Positions 2,693 through 49,835 of a DNA stretch of 64,000 bases are shown here, piece after piece. Both the position numbers and the translations under genes were made by a program. Source of the stretch: Streptomyces soli. GTDB taxonomy: Bacteria; Actinomycetota; Actinomycetes; Streptomycetales; Streptomycetaceae. The stretch lies in the NCBI RefSeq assembly GCF_003999195.1, contig NZ_RJVR01000253.1, positions 1 through 64,000 on the forward strand, written 5' to 3'. The stretch's first letter is position 1; each line of letters opens with the position of its first letter. The notes below the pieces were generated by a model. The model had not been told where the DNA came from, made no database searches, and saw nothing but the letters and a program-made list of their open reading frames with translations.

Positions 2693-3870
2693 TGGACCGG
2701 CTGGACCGCTCTGCCGAGGACTTCGAGCTGCCCGACCCCGAAAGAGTCGACCCCGCCGTCCTCACCACGCTGCTCGCCCGGCACGGCTGGCAGCGGCGCG
2801 GCGACGCCCACGGCCGCTACACCCGCTGGACCCCACCCGGGGACGCCGGCACCAGCCTCCTGGTGCCCGCGTCCCAGAACAACGGCCGGCACGCGGACTA
2901 CGCCGACCTCCTCGGCGAGGCCCTGACCGCGCTGGCCCGCAGCGGCGCGCCCTCGGCCCGCGAGGTGCTCACCGCCCTGTCCGTGCCCGGGGACGAGATC
3001 CGCTGGATCCGCGACATGCCCCGGGTCGCCGACGCCGTGCCCTGGCCCGCTGCCGGGCAGCTGCGCTCGGCCGCCCGCGCCATGCTCATGGCCGCCGCCC
3101 GCGCCGAGCGCGGCCCCGCCGGCTACTTCGGCGAGCGGCACGGGCGTTTCGCCACGGCGTTCCTGGAGCAGGTCCTCGTCGGGCCCTCGCCCGGCGGCCA
3201 CCTGCTCACCGCGTACGTGCCCGCCCCCGACGGCCGGGCGGTCGTCACGACCCTGCTACGCGCGTTGCAGGCCACCCGGGACGCGGTGGACTACCAGCGC
3301 ACCACCGGTGGCATGGAGGCCTTCGACTCCGCCGTGGGCCTCGGCGTCTGCCATGAACTCACCGAGTCTCTGGTCCGGCTGGTGCGAGGCGCCGAGGGTG
3401 TGGCCGTGGCCCTCGCCTGGTCGCCTGCCTCCGGCCCACCGGCGGGCTTCGCGGCGCGGCCGGAGCCCGTCGAGTTCTCGCCTGGCGACCTCCCGGCCCT
3501 GGAGGCCGCCAGTGTCCGTTACGTGAGCGAGGAGCCCTCCGTACACGTCAATGTCACCGGCACCGTCGTCCGGCTGCGCCGTCCCCGCCCCTCCGGCGGT
3601 GGCACCATCCGGCTGCGGGTCCTGGCCGGGGCCGACGTCCGCCAGGTCCGTGTCCGCCTCGACCAGGACGCGTACCGCATCGCCGCCCACGCCCACCTGG
3701 TCGGTCTGCCCGTCCGCGTCACCGGCCGCCTCGAAGCCCGCAGCGGTTTCCGCCGCATCATCCAGCCCAGCGCGGTGACGCCCGTCCATGTCGACGAGGC
3801 CGAGCGCGACCGCCTGCTCAAATCCCTCCAGGGAGGAATCGAGACCTTCGAGGACGCGTGCGGCGGCTGA
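2689..3870 (+). CDS. Conserved hypothetical protein, translationally coupled to the DUF4365 gene
   Basis: The product is 393 aa and not recognised as a known enzyme. The N-terminal two thirds is mixed alpha/beta with Ala/Arg-rich helices. Residues from about 280 to 370 alternate short strands (VHVNVTGTVVRLRR, RVRVTGRLEARSGF) in a way that suggests a small beta-barrel such as an OB fold; this is inference only. There is no signal peptide or membrane segment. The start is the first ATG of ATGATG and overlaps the DUF4365 stop, with GGGAGG just upstream. The pairing suggests a shared function, possibly nucleic-acid related. Confidence 0.6.
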   Translation: MMDRLDRSAEDFELPDPERVDPAVLTTLLARHGWQRRGDAHGRYTRWTPPGDAGTSLLVPASQNNGRHADYADLLGEALTALARSGAPSAREVLTALSVPGDEIRWIRDMPRVADAVPWPAAGQLRSAARAMLMAAARAERGPAGYFGERHGRFATAFLEQVLVGPSPGGHLLTAYVPAPDGRAVVTTLLRALQATRDAVDYQRTTGGMEAFDSAVGLGVCHELTESLVRLVRGAEGVAVALAWSPASGPPAGFAARPEPVEFSPGDLPALEAASVRYVSEEPSVHVNVTGTVVRLRRPRPSGGGTIRLRVLAGADVRQVRVRLDQDAYRIAAHAHLVGLPVRVTGRLEARSGFRRIIQPSAVTPVHVDEAERDRLLKSLQGGIETFEDACGG

Positions 3871-3890
3871 AGCCGTCGCACGCGTCCTCG
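3849..3890. terminator. Terminator hairpin spanning the stop codon of the upstream gene
   Basis: Bases 3849-3868 pair with 3871-3890 (20 bp, one G-T pair). The 5' arm encodes the last residues of the hypothetical protein, and the stop codon lies in the loop. The hairpin separates two convergent genes whose stops are about 30 bp apart and can end transcription from either side. Confidence 0.65.
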
Positions 3891-3898
3891 CCCGGGGG

Positions 3899-4408
3899 TC
3901 AGCCGTGCTGCACAGCGCTCTGGGAGTAGTTGTCATGCCATGCGGCCTTCGCGCCCGAGTCCCCGATCCGGTACACGTCGATTACCGCGCCCACCGAGAC
4001 CACGAGGCAGGCGCCCAGCACGGCGTACCTGACCAGCGACGAGGTGACCCAGGTCCGCGTCTGACCGCCCTCGGTGGCAGCCGCCCGGCGGGTCGCCCAG
4101 CACACGAGGGCCGACAGCAGGAAGAGACCGACAGCCCAGGGCAGCATGCCGTCGCCCAGCTCGGCGTGCTTCTGGATCAGCGGGTCGGTGCCGGTGTGGG
4201 ACTCCAGCCATTCGCCGGCGTGGGTGGCCAGGGGGACGCTCGCGAGGGTCACAAACCCCAGAACCGGCAGCAGCACGCCGAGTTTCCGGGCACTTCTGGG
4301 CCAGGCCGCGCAGACGACGAGCGCCAGCGCGAGCAGAGGCACGAACACGATCACGAAGTGCACGAACAGCACGTGCGCAGGAAGTCCATTGATGACGGTG
4401 AGACTCAA
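3899..4408 (-). CDS. DUF2231-like four-helix membrane protein
   Basis: The product is 169 aa with four hydrophobic segments at about residues 12-32, 43-62, 87-105 and 125-145. The N-terminal GLPAHVLFVHFVIVFVPL is the signature start of DUF2231-type membrane proteins, whose conserved His residues are thought to bind haem or metal. The start is a TTG at 4408, with AAGGA shortly upstream; no ATG or GTG lies before the conserved motif. It stands alone between a convergent and a divergent gene. The function is not known. Confidence 0.7.
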   Translation of the reverse strand: MSLTVINGLPAHVLFVHFVIVFVPLLALALVVCAAWPRSARKLGVLLPVLGFVTLASVPLATHAGEWLESHTGTDPLIQKHAELGDGMLPWAVGLFLLSALVCWATRRAAATEGGQTRTWVTSSLVRYAVLGACLVVSVGAVIDVYRIGDSGAKAAWHDNYSQSAVQHG

Positions 4409-4642
4409 GAGTCCTTCTCCACGATGATTTGGGGGGGATCATGCCCGGGCAGCGGGCCTGCCAGGGCAGAGAGCGCGGCCAGCCTGGCACAGGAACTTCT
4501 CAGGTACCTCTGAGCGGTACTGGTGTCCCGTCCGCATCAGTGCCACCGCTTATCGCTTCGCGGTGCACGGGCCCGGCTCGGTACGATTCACCGGTGCAGC
4601 ATCAGCTGCGGAGCCAGTGGGACATACGTCAGGAGAGAACCG

Positions 4643-46253: not shown

Positions 46254-46919
46254 ATGCAGCACGCTGTGGGGCCGCCGCAGCCCTCCGGCACCACCGGGCA
46301 CTTCCCCCTGCCGCCAGGTGCCGCGGTCCAGCTGCCGCAGGCACAGCCGCAGGCGCAGCCACACGCACCCGTGGCGGTCCTGCTGATCGGCGCGGCGGGC
46401 GCGGGCAAGACGACCATCGCCCGCCACTGGGCGGACCACCGCGGCGTACCGACGGCGCACATCAGCCTGGACGACGTACGTGAATGGGTGCGGTCGGGGT
46501 TCGCGGACCCCCAGTCGGGCTGGAACGAGCACTCCGAGGCGCAGTATCGACTCGCCCGCCGCACCTGCGGGTTCTCGGCCCGCAATTTCCTGGCCAACGG
46601 CATCTCCTGCATCATCGACGACGCCGTCTTCCCCGACCGGCCCGTGGTCGGCCTCGGCGGCTGGAAGCGGCACGTGGGCCCCGGGCTGCTGCCCGTCGTC
46701 CTCCTCCCCGGCCTGGACGTGGTCCTGGCCCGCAACGCGCAGCGCTCGGGCAACCGCCGCCTGTCCGATGACGAGGTCGCCCGCATCCACGGCCGCATGG
46801 CCGGCTGGTACGGCTCCGGGCTGCCCATCATCGACAACTCCCAGCTCGACGTCCCCGCTGCCGCGACCGCGCTCGACAGCGTCGTGGCCCGCAGCCTCCA
46901 GGGGCCCCCGGCCTGGTAG
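46254..46919 (+). CDS. P-loop kinase-like protein (AAA_33/zeta-toxin type)
   Basis: The product is 221 aa. A Pro/Gln-rich head of about 40 residues leads into Walker A GAAGAGKTTIARHW. LDDVREWVRSGF supplies the Asp expected in small-molecule kinases, and a lid-like RNAQRSGNRRLSDDEV follows. Zeta toxins and polynucleotide or sugar kinases share this fold. There is no antitoxin gene beside it, so a toxin role is not supported. It is 78 bp upstream of the M24-like gene on the same strand. The substrate is unknown. Confidence 0.7.
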   Translation: MQHAVGPPQPSGTTGHFPLPPGAAVQLPQAQPQAQPHAPVAVLLIGAAGAGKTTIARHWADHRGVPTAHISLDDVREWVRSGFADPQSGWNEHSEAQYRLARRTCGFSARNFLANGISCIIDDAVFPDRPVVGLGGWKRHVGPGLLPVVLLPGLDVVLARNAQRSGNRRLSDDEVARIHGRMAGWYGSGLPIIDNSQLDVPAAATALDSVVARSLQGPPAW

Positions 46920-46997: not shown

Positions 46998-48107
46998 ATG
47001 TCCGAGGTGCACGCTGTCCGCCGGGAACGTCTTCGTGACCGCTGCGCCGCGGCCGGGGCGGAAGCGGCCCTGGTCTCGCGCCCGGCCAACGTCCGTTACC
47101 TGACCGGCTGCGCCCCCGCCGACGCCGTCCTGCTGGTCGGTCCCGGCTCGCAGGACGTCCTGGTCCACCGCCGCCGGCCGTCCGGCGACCTCGCCGAGGG
47201 CCAGGTGCCGGAGGACGTACGGGCCGTGGTGCTGCCCGCGCCGGACGGCGACCCGGTCGTGGCCGCAGCCGGTCTCGCCCAGGAGCGCAAGGCCGAGGCG
47301 CTGGCCGTCGAGGAGCACCACCTGACGGTCGCCCGGCACCGCGCCATCGCCTCCGTCGTGCCCGGCATCCGGCTGGCCGACCTGGGCGGGGCTGTGGAGC
47401 AGCTGCGCCTGGTCAAGGACGAGCAGGAGATCTCGGCCCTGCGGATCTCCGCCGAGATCGCCGACCAGGCCCTCGGCGAACTGCTGGAATCCATCCTGGT
47501 CGGCCGCACCGAACGGCACCTCGCCCTGGAACTGGAGCGCCGCCTGGTCGACCACGGCGCCGACGGCCCCGCCTTCCCCACGTACGTCGGGACCGGGCCC
47601 CACTCCGGCGCCGCGAACCACCTCCCGACCGACCGGCGGGTCGAGGAGGGCGACTTCCTCACCGTCTGTCTGGGCGCCAACTACCGCGGATACCGGTGCG
47701 AGGTCGGCCGTACCTTCGTCATCGGGACGACTCCCGCCGACTGGCAGATCGACCTGTACGAGCTGGTCTTCGCCGCCCAGCGAGCCGGCCGCGAGGCCCT
47801 CGCACCGGGTGTGGCCTGCCGCGATGTCGACCGTGCCGCCCGCCAACTGGTGGCCTCCGCCGGGTACGCGGAAGCGCTGGGGGAGAGCACCGGGCACGGC
47901 GTCGGCCTGGAGATCGGCGAGGACCCTCGGCTGTCGCCCGCGGCCATGGGTAAACTGGACGCTTGCGTGCCGGTCACCGTCGAACCGGGGGTCCACCTTC
48001 CGGGCCGAGGCGGTGTCCGCATCGACGACACACTCGTCGTACGTCCTCAGGCGGACGGCGGGCCCGAGCTACTCACCATCACGACCAAGGAGCTGCTCGC
48101 CCTTTAG
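46998..48107 (+). CDS. Peptidase M24 (Xaa-Pro peptidase/prolidase) homologue with altered metal site
   Basis: The product is 369 aa with the M24 creatinase-type N-domain and pita-bread C-domain. Only two of five metal ligands are canonical: H300 (STGHGVGLE) and E329 (VTVEPG). The first Asp is C224 (LTVCLGANY), the second Asp is E235 (GYRCEVGRT), and the last Glu is D343 (GGVRIDDT). Loss of D-x10-D suggests weak or no aminopeptidase activity, or another metal. It lies just upstream of efp, where PepP/PepQ genes are common. ATG 46998 is the start; TACGCT eight bases upstream suggests a leaderless mRNA. Confidence 0.85.
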   Translation: MSEVHAVRRERLRDRCAAAGAEAALVSRPANVRYLTGCAPADAVLLVGPGSQDVLVHRRRPSGDLAEGQVPEDVRAVVLPAPDGDPVVAAAGLAQERKAEALAVEEHHLTVARHRAIASVVPGIRLADLGGAVEQLRLVKDEQEISALRISAEIADQALGELLESILVGRTERHLALELERRLVDHGADGPAFPTYVGTGPHSGAANHLPTDRRVEEGDFLTVCLGANYRGYRCEVGRTFVIGTTPADWQIDLYELVFAAQRAGREALAPGVACRDVDRAARQLVASAGYAEALGESTGHGVGLEIGEDPRLSPAAMGKLDACVPVTVEPGVHLPGRGGVRIDDTLVVRPQADGGPELLTITTKELLAL

Positions 48108-48158: not shown

Positions 48159-48725
48159 GTGGCATCCACGAACGACCTCAAGAACGGCCTCGTGCTCAAG
48201 CTCGACGGAGGCCAGCTCTGGTCCGTAGTCGAGTTCCAGCACGTCAAGCCCGGCAAGGGCCCCGCCTTCGTCCGTACGAAGCTCAAGAACGTGCTCTCCG
48301 GCAAGGTCGTCGACAAGACCTTCAACGCCGGTGTGAAGGTCGAGACGGCCAACGTCGACAAGCGCGGCATGCAGTTCTCCTACAAGGACGGCGAGAGCTT
48401 CGTGTTCATGGACATGGACACGTACGACCAGATCTACGTCTCTCCCGAGGTGGTCGGCGACGCCGCCAACTACCTCCTCGAGGGCTTCGAGGCCGTCGTC
48501 GCGATGTACGAGGGCTCGCCGCTCTACATCGAACTCCCGGCCGCTGTCGAACTCGTCATCGAGTACACCGAGCCCGGCGTCCAGGGCGACCGCTCCACTG
48601 GCGGCACCAAGCCCGCGCGCCTGGAGACCGGTTACGAGGTCGGCGTGCCGCTCTTCATCACCACGGGTGAGAAGATCAAGGTCGACACCCGCACGGGTGA
48701 CTACCTCGGCCGGGTGAACAACTAA
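48159..48725 (+). CDS. efp: Translation elongation factor P
   Basis: The product is 188 aa with three beta-barrel domains, full length. The tip loop that reaches the peptidyl-transferase centre is [10 protein letters not shown] with Lys33. No EpmA/EpmB or EarP gene is nearby, so the tip Lys may be unmodified; this is inference. EF-P relieves stalling at proline runs. GTG 48159 has AGGAG upstream. nusB starts two bases after its stop. Confidence 0.96.
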
Positions 48726-48727
48726 CC

Positions 48728-49156
48728 GTGGCTGCCCGCAACAAGGCCCGCAAGCGGGCCTTCCAGATCCTCTTCGAGGCGGAGCAGCGGGGTGTCGGCC
48801 CCAAGATCGCCATGGCGGACTGGATACGGCTCGCCCGGACCGACGACCGGCAACCGCCGGTCAGCGAGTACACCATGCAGCTCATCGAGGGCTACGCGGC
48901 TCACGCCGAGCGCATCGACGAGCTGCTTGCCACGTATGCCGTCGGCTGGACCCTCGACCGCATGCCGGTCGTTGACCGCAACGTCCTGCGCCTCGGCGCG
49001 TACGAGCTGATCTGGGAGGACGACGTCCCCGACGCTGTCGTCCTGGACGAGGCCGTGCAGCTCGCCAAGGAGTTCTCCACGGAGGAGTCGCCGGCCTTCG
49101 TGAACGGCCTGCTGGCTCGGCTCAAGGACCTCAAGCCCGGCCTGCGGCGCGACTAG
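48728..49156 (+). CDS. nusB: Transcription antitermination factor NusB
   Basis: The product is 142 aa, all-helical. RNKARKRAFQILFEAEQRG at the N-terminus and VDRNVLRLGAYELIWEDDVP in the middle are the NusB hallmarks. It binds boxA RNA with S10 for rRNA transcription. It is cotranscribed with efp (2-bp gap) and followed by a strong terminator. Confidence 0.96.
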   Translation: MAARNKARKRAFQILFEAEQRGVGPKIAMADWIRLARTDDRQPPVSEYTMQLIEGYAAHAERIDELLATYAVGWTLDRMPVVDRNVLRLGAYELIWEDDVPDAVVLDEAVQLAKEFSTEESPAFVNGLLARLKDLKPGLRRD

Positions 49157-49178: not shown

Positions 49179-49220
49179 CCGAGGCCCGGAACGCATCGCG
49201 TTCCGGGCCTCGGCCTTTTT
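49179..49220 (+). terminator. nusB intrinsic terminator
   Basis: Bases 49179-49194 pair perfectly with 49198-49213 (16 bp, loop ATC), followed by TTTTT at 49216-49220. Confidence 0.93.
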
Positions 49221-49334: not shown

Positions 49335-49835
49335 TCAGCCCTCCTCCTGCTGGACGGCGCGGCGCGCGTCCGCGTCCAGGACGCCCCAGCTGATGAGCTG
49401 GTCGGTGAGGACCGAAGGGGACTGGTCGTAGATGACGGCGAGGGTGCGGAGGTCGTCCTGGCGGATCGAGAGCACCTTGCCGTTGTAGTCACCACGCTGG
49501 CTCTGGATGGTGGCGGCGTAGCGCTGGAGCGGGCCGGCCTTGTCGGACGGCACCTGGGAGAGCCGCTCAAGGTCGAGCACAAGCTTCGGCGGCGGCTCGG
49601 CAGCCCCGCCGGGCGCGGACCCGGGCAGCAGCTCCTGCACCGGCACGCCGTAGAAATCGGCGAGCTCGGCAAGGCGCTGCACGGTCACCGCACGGTCGCC
49701 GCGCTCGTACGAGCCGACGACCACGGCCTTCCAGCGGCCCTGGGACTTCTCCTCGACGCCGTGGAGGGAGAGTCCCTGCTGCGTGCGGATGGCACGGAGC
49801 TTGGCTCCGAGCTGTTTGGCGTAATCGCTGGACAT
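49335..49835 (-). CDS. bldD: Developmental master regulator BldD
   Basis: The product is 166 aa. An N-terminal XRE-type helix-turn-helix domain (residues 1-79) binds DNA. The C-terminal domain carries the c-di-GMP motif RxD-x8-RxxD exactly: R114, D116, R125 and D128 (RGD then RQDD). In Streptomyces a c-di-GMP tetramer glues two BldD subunits together, which then repress sporulation genes during vegetative growth. GGGGAG lies four bases before ATG 49835. The divergent neighbour is the pyr operon; a likely autoregulatory site lies just upstream. Confidence 0.98.
   Translation of the reverse strand: MSSDYAKQLGAKLRAIRTQQGLSLHGVEEKSQGRWKAVVVGSYERGDRAVTVQRLAELADFYGVPVQELLPGSAPGGAAEPPPKLVLDLERLSQVPSDKAGPLQRYAATIQSQRGDYNGKVLSIRQDDLRTLAVIYDQSPSVLTDQLISWGVLDADARRAVQQEEG

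Follow-up and report, generated by a model that had tools for sequence, protein, structure and literature searches.

The window analyzed here, a stretch of 64,000 nucleotides from Streptomyces soli, carries a putative M24B (PepQ/prolidase-like) pseudopeptidase gene on its forward strand (46998..48107). The frame has its ATG at 46998 and a stop codon that ends at 48107, is open throughout, and encodes 369 amino acids (aa) plus stop. Pfam matches to Peptidase_M24 (181.5 bits; cut-off, 23) and Creatinase_N (69 bits; cut-off, 22) give the product the domain pair of an M24B Xaa-Pro dipeptidase, and no NCBIfam peptidase model was reached at cut-off (best, NF040821 with 180.8 bits versus 630). Upstream on the same strand lies a gene for a 221-aa P-loop protein (46254..46919) with a Pfam match to AAA_33 (38.6 bits; cut-off, 27). 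Downstream, after a gap of 51 nt, efp encodes elongation factor P (EF-P) with a PGKGP loop (48159..48725, forward strand), as identified by open reading frame and family match. It is followed by a nusB-like gene (48728..49156, forward strand), named from position and sequence without a family search, and by a convergent BldD-like regulator gene on the reverse strand (49335-49835), assigned by resemblance and by the published gene order in other actinomycetes. A strong terminator-like hairpin with a T-run was found just 3′ of nusB (49179-49213; shuffles averaged 1.5), while the interval from the P-loop gene through nusB held no terminator-like sites.

Active-site columns and fold of the M24 protein

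The earlier note, made from the letters alone, described an M24 homologue upstream of efp that had lost three metal ligands, and reading of the open reading frame confirmed C224-E235-H300-E329-D343. Metal sites are numbered, and roles assigned to individual residues, after the E. coli enzymes. All codons concerned are on the forward strand: codon 224 (Cys; 47667..47669) occupies the column of metal-ligand Asp 1, codon 235 (Glu; 47700..47702) that of Asp 2, and codon 343 (Asp; 48024..48026) that of the last metal-ligand Glu, and the metal-ligand His at codon 300 (47895..47897) and Glu at codon 329 (47982..47984) are retained. Two of the three ligand changes are conservative carboxylate swaps (D to E, E to D). 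Overlooked earlier was that both catalytic-His columns are altered too, codon 207 being Asn (47616..47618) and codon 307 Gly (47916..47918), together with second-shell positions such as codon 333, where His (47994..47996) replaces a Tyr found in 80/80 canonical loci. The protein has neither the five-ligand D-D-H-E-E set nor the two catalytic histidines of an active M24B Xaa-Pro dipeptidase.

In HMMER alignments, the five ligand-column residues face D/D/H/E/E of the Pyrococcus prolidases 1wy2 and 1pv9, the nearest solved relatives by sequence, and a MAFFT alignment with the M24 paralogues of the same genome, including MetAP-type proteins, returned identical columns. The earlier note had named an alignment that restores canonical ligands as grounds against it; with HMMER and MAFFT in agreement, the ligands stay noncanonical, and alignment error is ruled out as the cause of the odd set. 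The genome carries a second M24B protein (L001) with a complete ligand set, so the cell need not lack peptidase activity.

That the fold is kept, as the note had supposed, is borne out by the sequence matches to solved structures, by an AlphaFold2 model (mean pLDDT, 85.5), and by a Foldseek search of this model against the PDB, in which 3q6d, 2zsg, and 1wy2 came first (best E value, 1.9e-31; TM, 0.68; rmsd, 7.0). The pLDDT is under 50 at residues 298-317, H300 included, and the model is unreliable for site geometry.

Distribution and origin of the altered site

Relatives were read as loci from whole genomes together with named-genome loci (the best 80 of 536 confirmed). Excluded before counting were the paralogues L001 and L004 to L007, of which L007 is an M24 protein of the same genome with Cys in one ligand column and was handled as a paralogue rather than a relevant relative; L002, which duplicates the window; and L181, the orthologue in genome G213, which is frameshift-broken in that assembly and is without the canonical set as well. 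No match to the query was obtained for L003, L009, and L010, and L008 was absent from later runs. The resulting 250 loci comprised 170 degenerate loci (window included; 167 different proteins) and 80 canonical loci (78 different). A further sample added 17 degenerate loci, all from the deep branch described below, and 3 canonical loci, 2 of which repeat named loci. One orthologue (L158 of genome G164, 3157-4488) is 444 aa long, with a long Gly/Ala/Pro/Val-rich insert shortly before the metal-ligand His.

Across the 250 loci, in which the named loci are the best 80 of 536, the canonical set was present in 0/170 loci of the degenerate clade versus 80/80 others, which is not a chance distribution. 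With the further sample included, the ligand set was lost in 187/187 orthologous loci on the Streptomyces side of the family and H-D-D-H-H-E-E was intact in 83/83 loci outside, including those of Yinghuangia and Embleya from the same family. All 80 canonical loci carry P206, H207, D224, D235, H300, H307, E329, and E343. The 158 loci of the Streptomyces branch have at position 224 C (101), R (40), G (9), S (4), N (2), or A (2); at 235 E (146), Q (7), R (4), or L (1); and at 307 D (122), G (22), E (8), H (3), V (2), or Q (1), while H300 is found in 155, E329 in 156, and D343 in 154. The first catalytic His (H207) persists in 2/158 of these loci and in 0/12 of the deep branch.

The deep branch (genus codes g75, g76, g81, g82, g85, and g86; 12 loci, or 29 with the further 17) was given no genus name because L213, a record labeled Kitasatospora aureofaciens, groups inside the Streptomyces branch. 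Its 12 loci have A, S, V, or E at 224; S, A, or C at 235; G (10), A (1), or E (1) at 329; and E (11) or Q (1) at 343. The 17 additional deep-branch and 3 additional canonical loci gave the same pattern, with D235 lost in 29/29 deep-branch loci and E329 in 28/29 (G or A), so that too few ligands are kept there for an M24-type metal. Clade-wide, position 224 can be C, R, G, S, A, N, V, or E, and the C-E-H-E-D of the window represents one variant of a site in drift. Within the C-terminal domain, the conservation of columns 235, 300, 329, and 343 in the Streptomyces branch ranks between the 28th and 43rd percentiles, and these columns are thus not specially guarded. The check proposed in the earlier note, whether Cys, Glu, and Asp are fixed among orthologues, gave a negative answer, since 224 varies among the 158 loci and the deep branch drops further ligands. 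The same two observations leave its metal site of a new type unsupported and rule out a new site of fixed type.

A tree was built from 73 of the 250 rows by a quick method without bootstrap, with the active-site columns left out. The 48 degenerate rows formed one side of one branch (SH-aLRT, 100), and loss of the ligand set required one change, a value that 0/500 shuffles equaled. The degenerate side has a long stem (0.4) and adjoins the canonical Yinghuangia and Embleya rows; the outgroup rows did not all fall together. The two-metal catalytic center would have been lost once, on the Streptomycetaceae stem, after the Yinghuangia/Embleya line had branched off.

The loss was also compared with the rest of the protein. 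Sixty columns are at least 95% invariant in 57 nonredundant canonical rows; the clade retains 45 of these and has lost 15, including S41, D58, R60, Y61, H207, D224, D235, T237, H296, H307, Y333, and E343. The N-domain set S41, D58, R60, and Y61 is lost entire, and lost columns were not enriched near catalytic positions (7/15, versus 20/45 of those kept; p = 1.0). The change from Tyr to His at 333 is common to most of the clade (157/158 loci in the Streptomyces branch; 9/12 and 11/17 in the deep branch). Identity between the clade and Yinghuangia/Embleya is 76% over residues 153-190 and 92% over 334-349, versus 23% over the N-terminal residues 40-85. Over residues 153-190, 213-222, and 334-369, similarity between the clade and Yinghuangia/Embleya equals or nearly equals that between Yinghuangia/Embleya and other canonical proteins, which suggests that the region now under selection may already have had an additional function while the peptidase was intact.

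Retention of the gene and its neighbors

An orthologue match (E value, 4.8e-62 or better) was found in 149/150 and 92/93 family genomes, 241/243 in total. In the two genomes without one, G179 and G333, the contig stops inside the block and neither efp nor nusB is matched, which rules out gene loss as the explanation. Broken M24 copies in G213 and G206 look like assembly errors; G206 is 76% complete and has a broken efp as well. Outside the family, 4/15 genomes of the order (G263, G267, G268, and G270; L264-L267) have efp with M24 matches at paralogue level only. In G267, which is outside the clade, the M24 gene is gone and efp begins 60 nt past aroB; efp can therefore do without it.

Between the window and its nearest relative, dN/dS was 0.052/0.349 = 0.15, and the median over 3159 pairs was 0.28, as estimated by a simple method that is prone to bias when the DNA is GC rich. 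The value for canonical pairs was 0.54, probably through saturation, so that these estimates do not serve to compare the groups. These estimates indicate that the M24 gene is under purifying selection at the protein level in both branches. Rates relative to EF-P appeared mixed. The clade was not faster than the pooled canonical loci in 3 of 4 distance bins. It did outpace the Yinghuangia/Embleya/Catenulispora-type pairs in the two closest bins (9 and 21 pairs), as well as all canonical pairs in the closest one. At EF-P distances of 0.04-0.08, the ratio was 2.61 in the Streptomyces branch and 3.85 in the deep branch (3 pairs), versus 1.10 for Yinghuangia/Embleya/Catenulispora-type pairs (9 pairs) and 1.83 for all canonical pairs (21 pairs). 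At 0.14-0.2, the corresponding ratios were 1.40, 2.05, 1.58 (11 pairs), and 2.26. The M24 distance to outgroups is 0.52 for the clade versus 0.40, while the EF-P distances hardly differ (0.27 and 0.25), and this would fit a burst on the stem. The gene has the features by which a pseudoenzyme is recognized: the M24 fold is present, the catalytic residues are gone, and selection appears to retain the gene.

The position beside efp, which the earlier note had called conserved, proved to be so: 170/170 degenerate and 76/80 canonical loci have efp on the same strand at a distance of at most 150 nt. In the remaining four, efp is farther off (two) or was not found in the fetched stretch (two). The EF-P loop (PGKGP or PGKGG) does not correlate strictly with the M24 state, PGKGP occurring in 162/170 clade loci and 30/78 canonical loci. 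The literature gives the order pepQ-efp-nusB beside bldD in Saccharopolyspora erythraea (PMC3359211) and a conserved bldD-nusB-efp-pyr block in Streptomyces (PMC13118837), the latter in passages that do not name the M24 gene. A neighborhood link between EF-P and Xaa-Pro peptidases, with cleavage assumed, is likewise drawn for Firmicutes (PMC7327921) and Saccharopolyspora (PMC3359211). The persistence of a dead copy in that position argues against cleavage as the sole basis of this link.

A second gene, new to this analysis, tracks the degenerate M24. Orthologues of the P-loop (AAA_33) protein encoded just upstream (E value, 4e-64 or better) occur in 142/150 family genomes; the eight without one are the seven Yinghuangia/Embleya-type genomes and G179, where the contig stops at this point. 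The M24 protein was read in 92 of the 150 genomes, and of these 85 have a degenerate M24 with the P-loop gene and 7 a canonical M24 without it, with no exception. In a sample of the class, 8/116 genomes had the orthologue, all 8 belonging to the family (next best E value, 8e-10). The P-loop gene is upstream on the same strand in the fetched stretch of 157/170 degenerate loci, within 300 nt in 139; a separation of about 5-14 kb can occur in genus g85. The best solved match of the P-loop protein is 1zp6, a hypothetical protein, and PADLOC returned only weak matches for it.

Possible roles of the retained protein

Clade-wide loss of the ligand and histidine columns, its single origin, the drift of the ligands, and the retention of gene, fold, and place are established at the level of sequence comparison. 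On that footing the protein is very probably degenerate and devoid of normal Xaa-Pro peptidase activity. It is best read as a retained pseudopeptidase, a former Xaa-Pro dipeptidase without its two-metal center that is probably kept as a noncatalytic protein. The non-peptidase role proposed in the earlier note likewise stands as the best reading, given the lost ligand and catalytic-His columns and the kept gene, fold, and place, and we consider retention for a noncatalytic role likely. Searches of open-access full text, which most subscription journals lie outside, returned no description of this degenerate M24, and nothing for SCO1492, presumably the S. coelicolor locus tag.

Two alternatives would leave the protein an enzyme. 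In the Streptomyces branch, the second metal site could be lost together with Asp 1 and E235-H300-E329-D343 could hold one ion at the other site, with the D-to-E and E-to-D changes compensating, to catalyze some reaction. The four residues are indeed common in that branch, as one bound metal would predict, the remaining metal site is built from them, and E. coli MetAP is able to work with one metal. This is nevertheless improbable, as both catalytic-His columns are altered in nearly all of these loci, Arg occupies position 224 in 40 of the 158, the four columns are less conserved than the domain median, and the deep branch keeps the gene even though these residues are gone there. A metal-free, creatinase-like hydrolase with a new substrate could be imagined from the creatine amidinohydrolase and ectoine hydrolase found among the fold and sequence matches, from H208, retained in 187/187 clade loci, and from the near-universal H333 of the Streptomyces branch. 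Yet the catalytic His of creatinase, which we take to be in column 207, is altered here, H208 is equally conserved in canonical loci (79/80) and so is no mark of a new function, and no family model of such enzymes was reached at cut-off, making this very improbable.

The remaining alternatives concern the neighbors. If the P-loop gene arrived on the stem where the center was lost, the M24 protein could be a subunit or regulator of the P-loop protein, the two forming a module. The matching distribution and the upstream, same-strand arrangement speak for this, but two single events on one long stem amount to one coincidence, many other genes probably arose on that stem, and the two genes can be kilobases apart in genus g85; the codistribution may be coincidental, and we regard a module as unlikely. 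It is very improbable that the frame is a passenger preserved just so that efp is expressed or translationally coupled, while its protein is idle. The stretch free of terminator-like sites up to the hairpin after nusB would suit such coupling, but purifying selection at the protein level, the 45/60 retained invariant columns, and the G267 arrangement argue against it.

The pseudopeptidase reading has parallels and differences among known systems. PepQ/Xaa-Pro dipeptidases (1wy2, 1pv9, and 3q6d) share its two-domain architecture, fold, and alignable length, whereas the metal-ligand and catalytic-His columns of the window protein are altered. Creatinase and the ectoine hydrolase DoeA also combine the M24 fold with a Creatinase_N-type N-domain but are enzymes acting on nonpeptide substrates, and the His column presumed for creatinase is lost in the window protein. 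Ebp1/PA2G4, M24A-like pseudoenzymes, resemble it in having a metallopeptidase fold without a metal site that is kept by selection, and Ebp1 binds the ribosomal tunnel exit (PMC7005732 and PMC3888471). Ebp1 shows that an inactive M24-type fold can become a ribosome factor (PMC7005732). Unlike the window protein, which is bacterial and prolidase derived, Ebp1 is eukaryotic and MetAP derived.

The protein is thus pictured as a former PepQ-like M24B dipeptidase, kept after loss of its center and presumably unable to cleave Xaa-Pro peptides. It would now act by binding a peptide or protein partner, through parts whose conservation predates the loss (roughly residues 153-190, 213-222, and 334-369), most likely in the setting of the aroB/P-loop/M24/efp/nusB block. 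Candidate partners are EF-P, the ribosome or translation machinery, and the P-loop protein. EF-P or the ribosome is a tentative choice with a low chance of being right, and the P-loop protein is a doubtful one. A translation role is possible; only the efp neighborhood favors it, and the canonical relatives share that neighborhood. Functions may differ between the deep and Streptomyces branches. It is quite improbable, though conceivable, that the P-loop protein and the dead M24, as binding subunit, form a pair, brought together on the Streptomycetaceae stem, that acts with EF-P to sense or regulate how proline-rich proteins are translated.

Across a large and much-studied family, a gene that is likely annotated automatically as a peptidase very probably does not encode one. 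The sister genera Yinghuangia and Embleya keep a working version in the same place and offer a natural control for why PepQ-type peptidases adjoin efp; a phenotype for the dead version would mean that something other than cleavage ties it to efp. A translation-sensing pair, if true, would be a bacterial counterpart, of separate origin, to the eukaryotic M24-fold ribosome factors.
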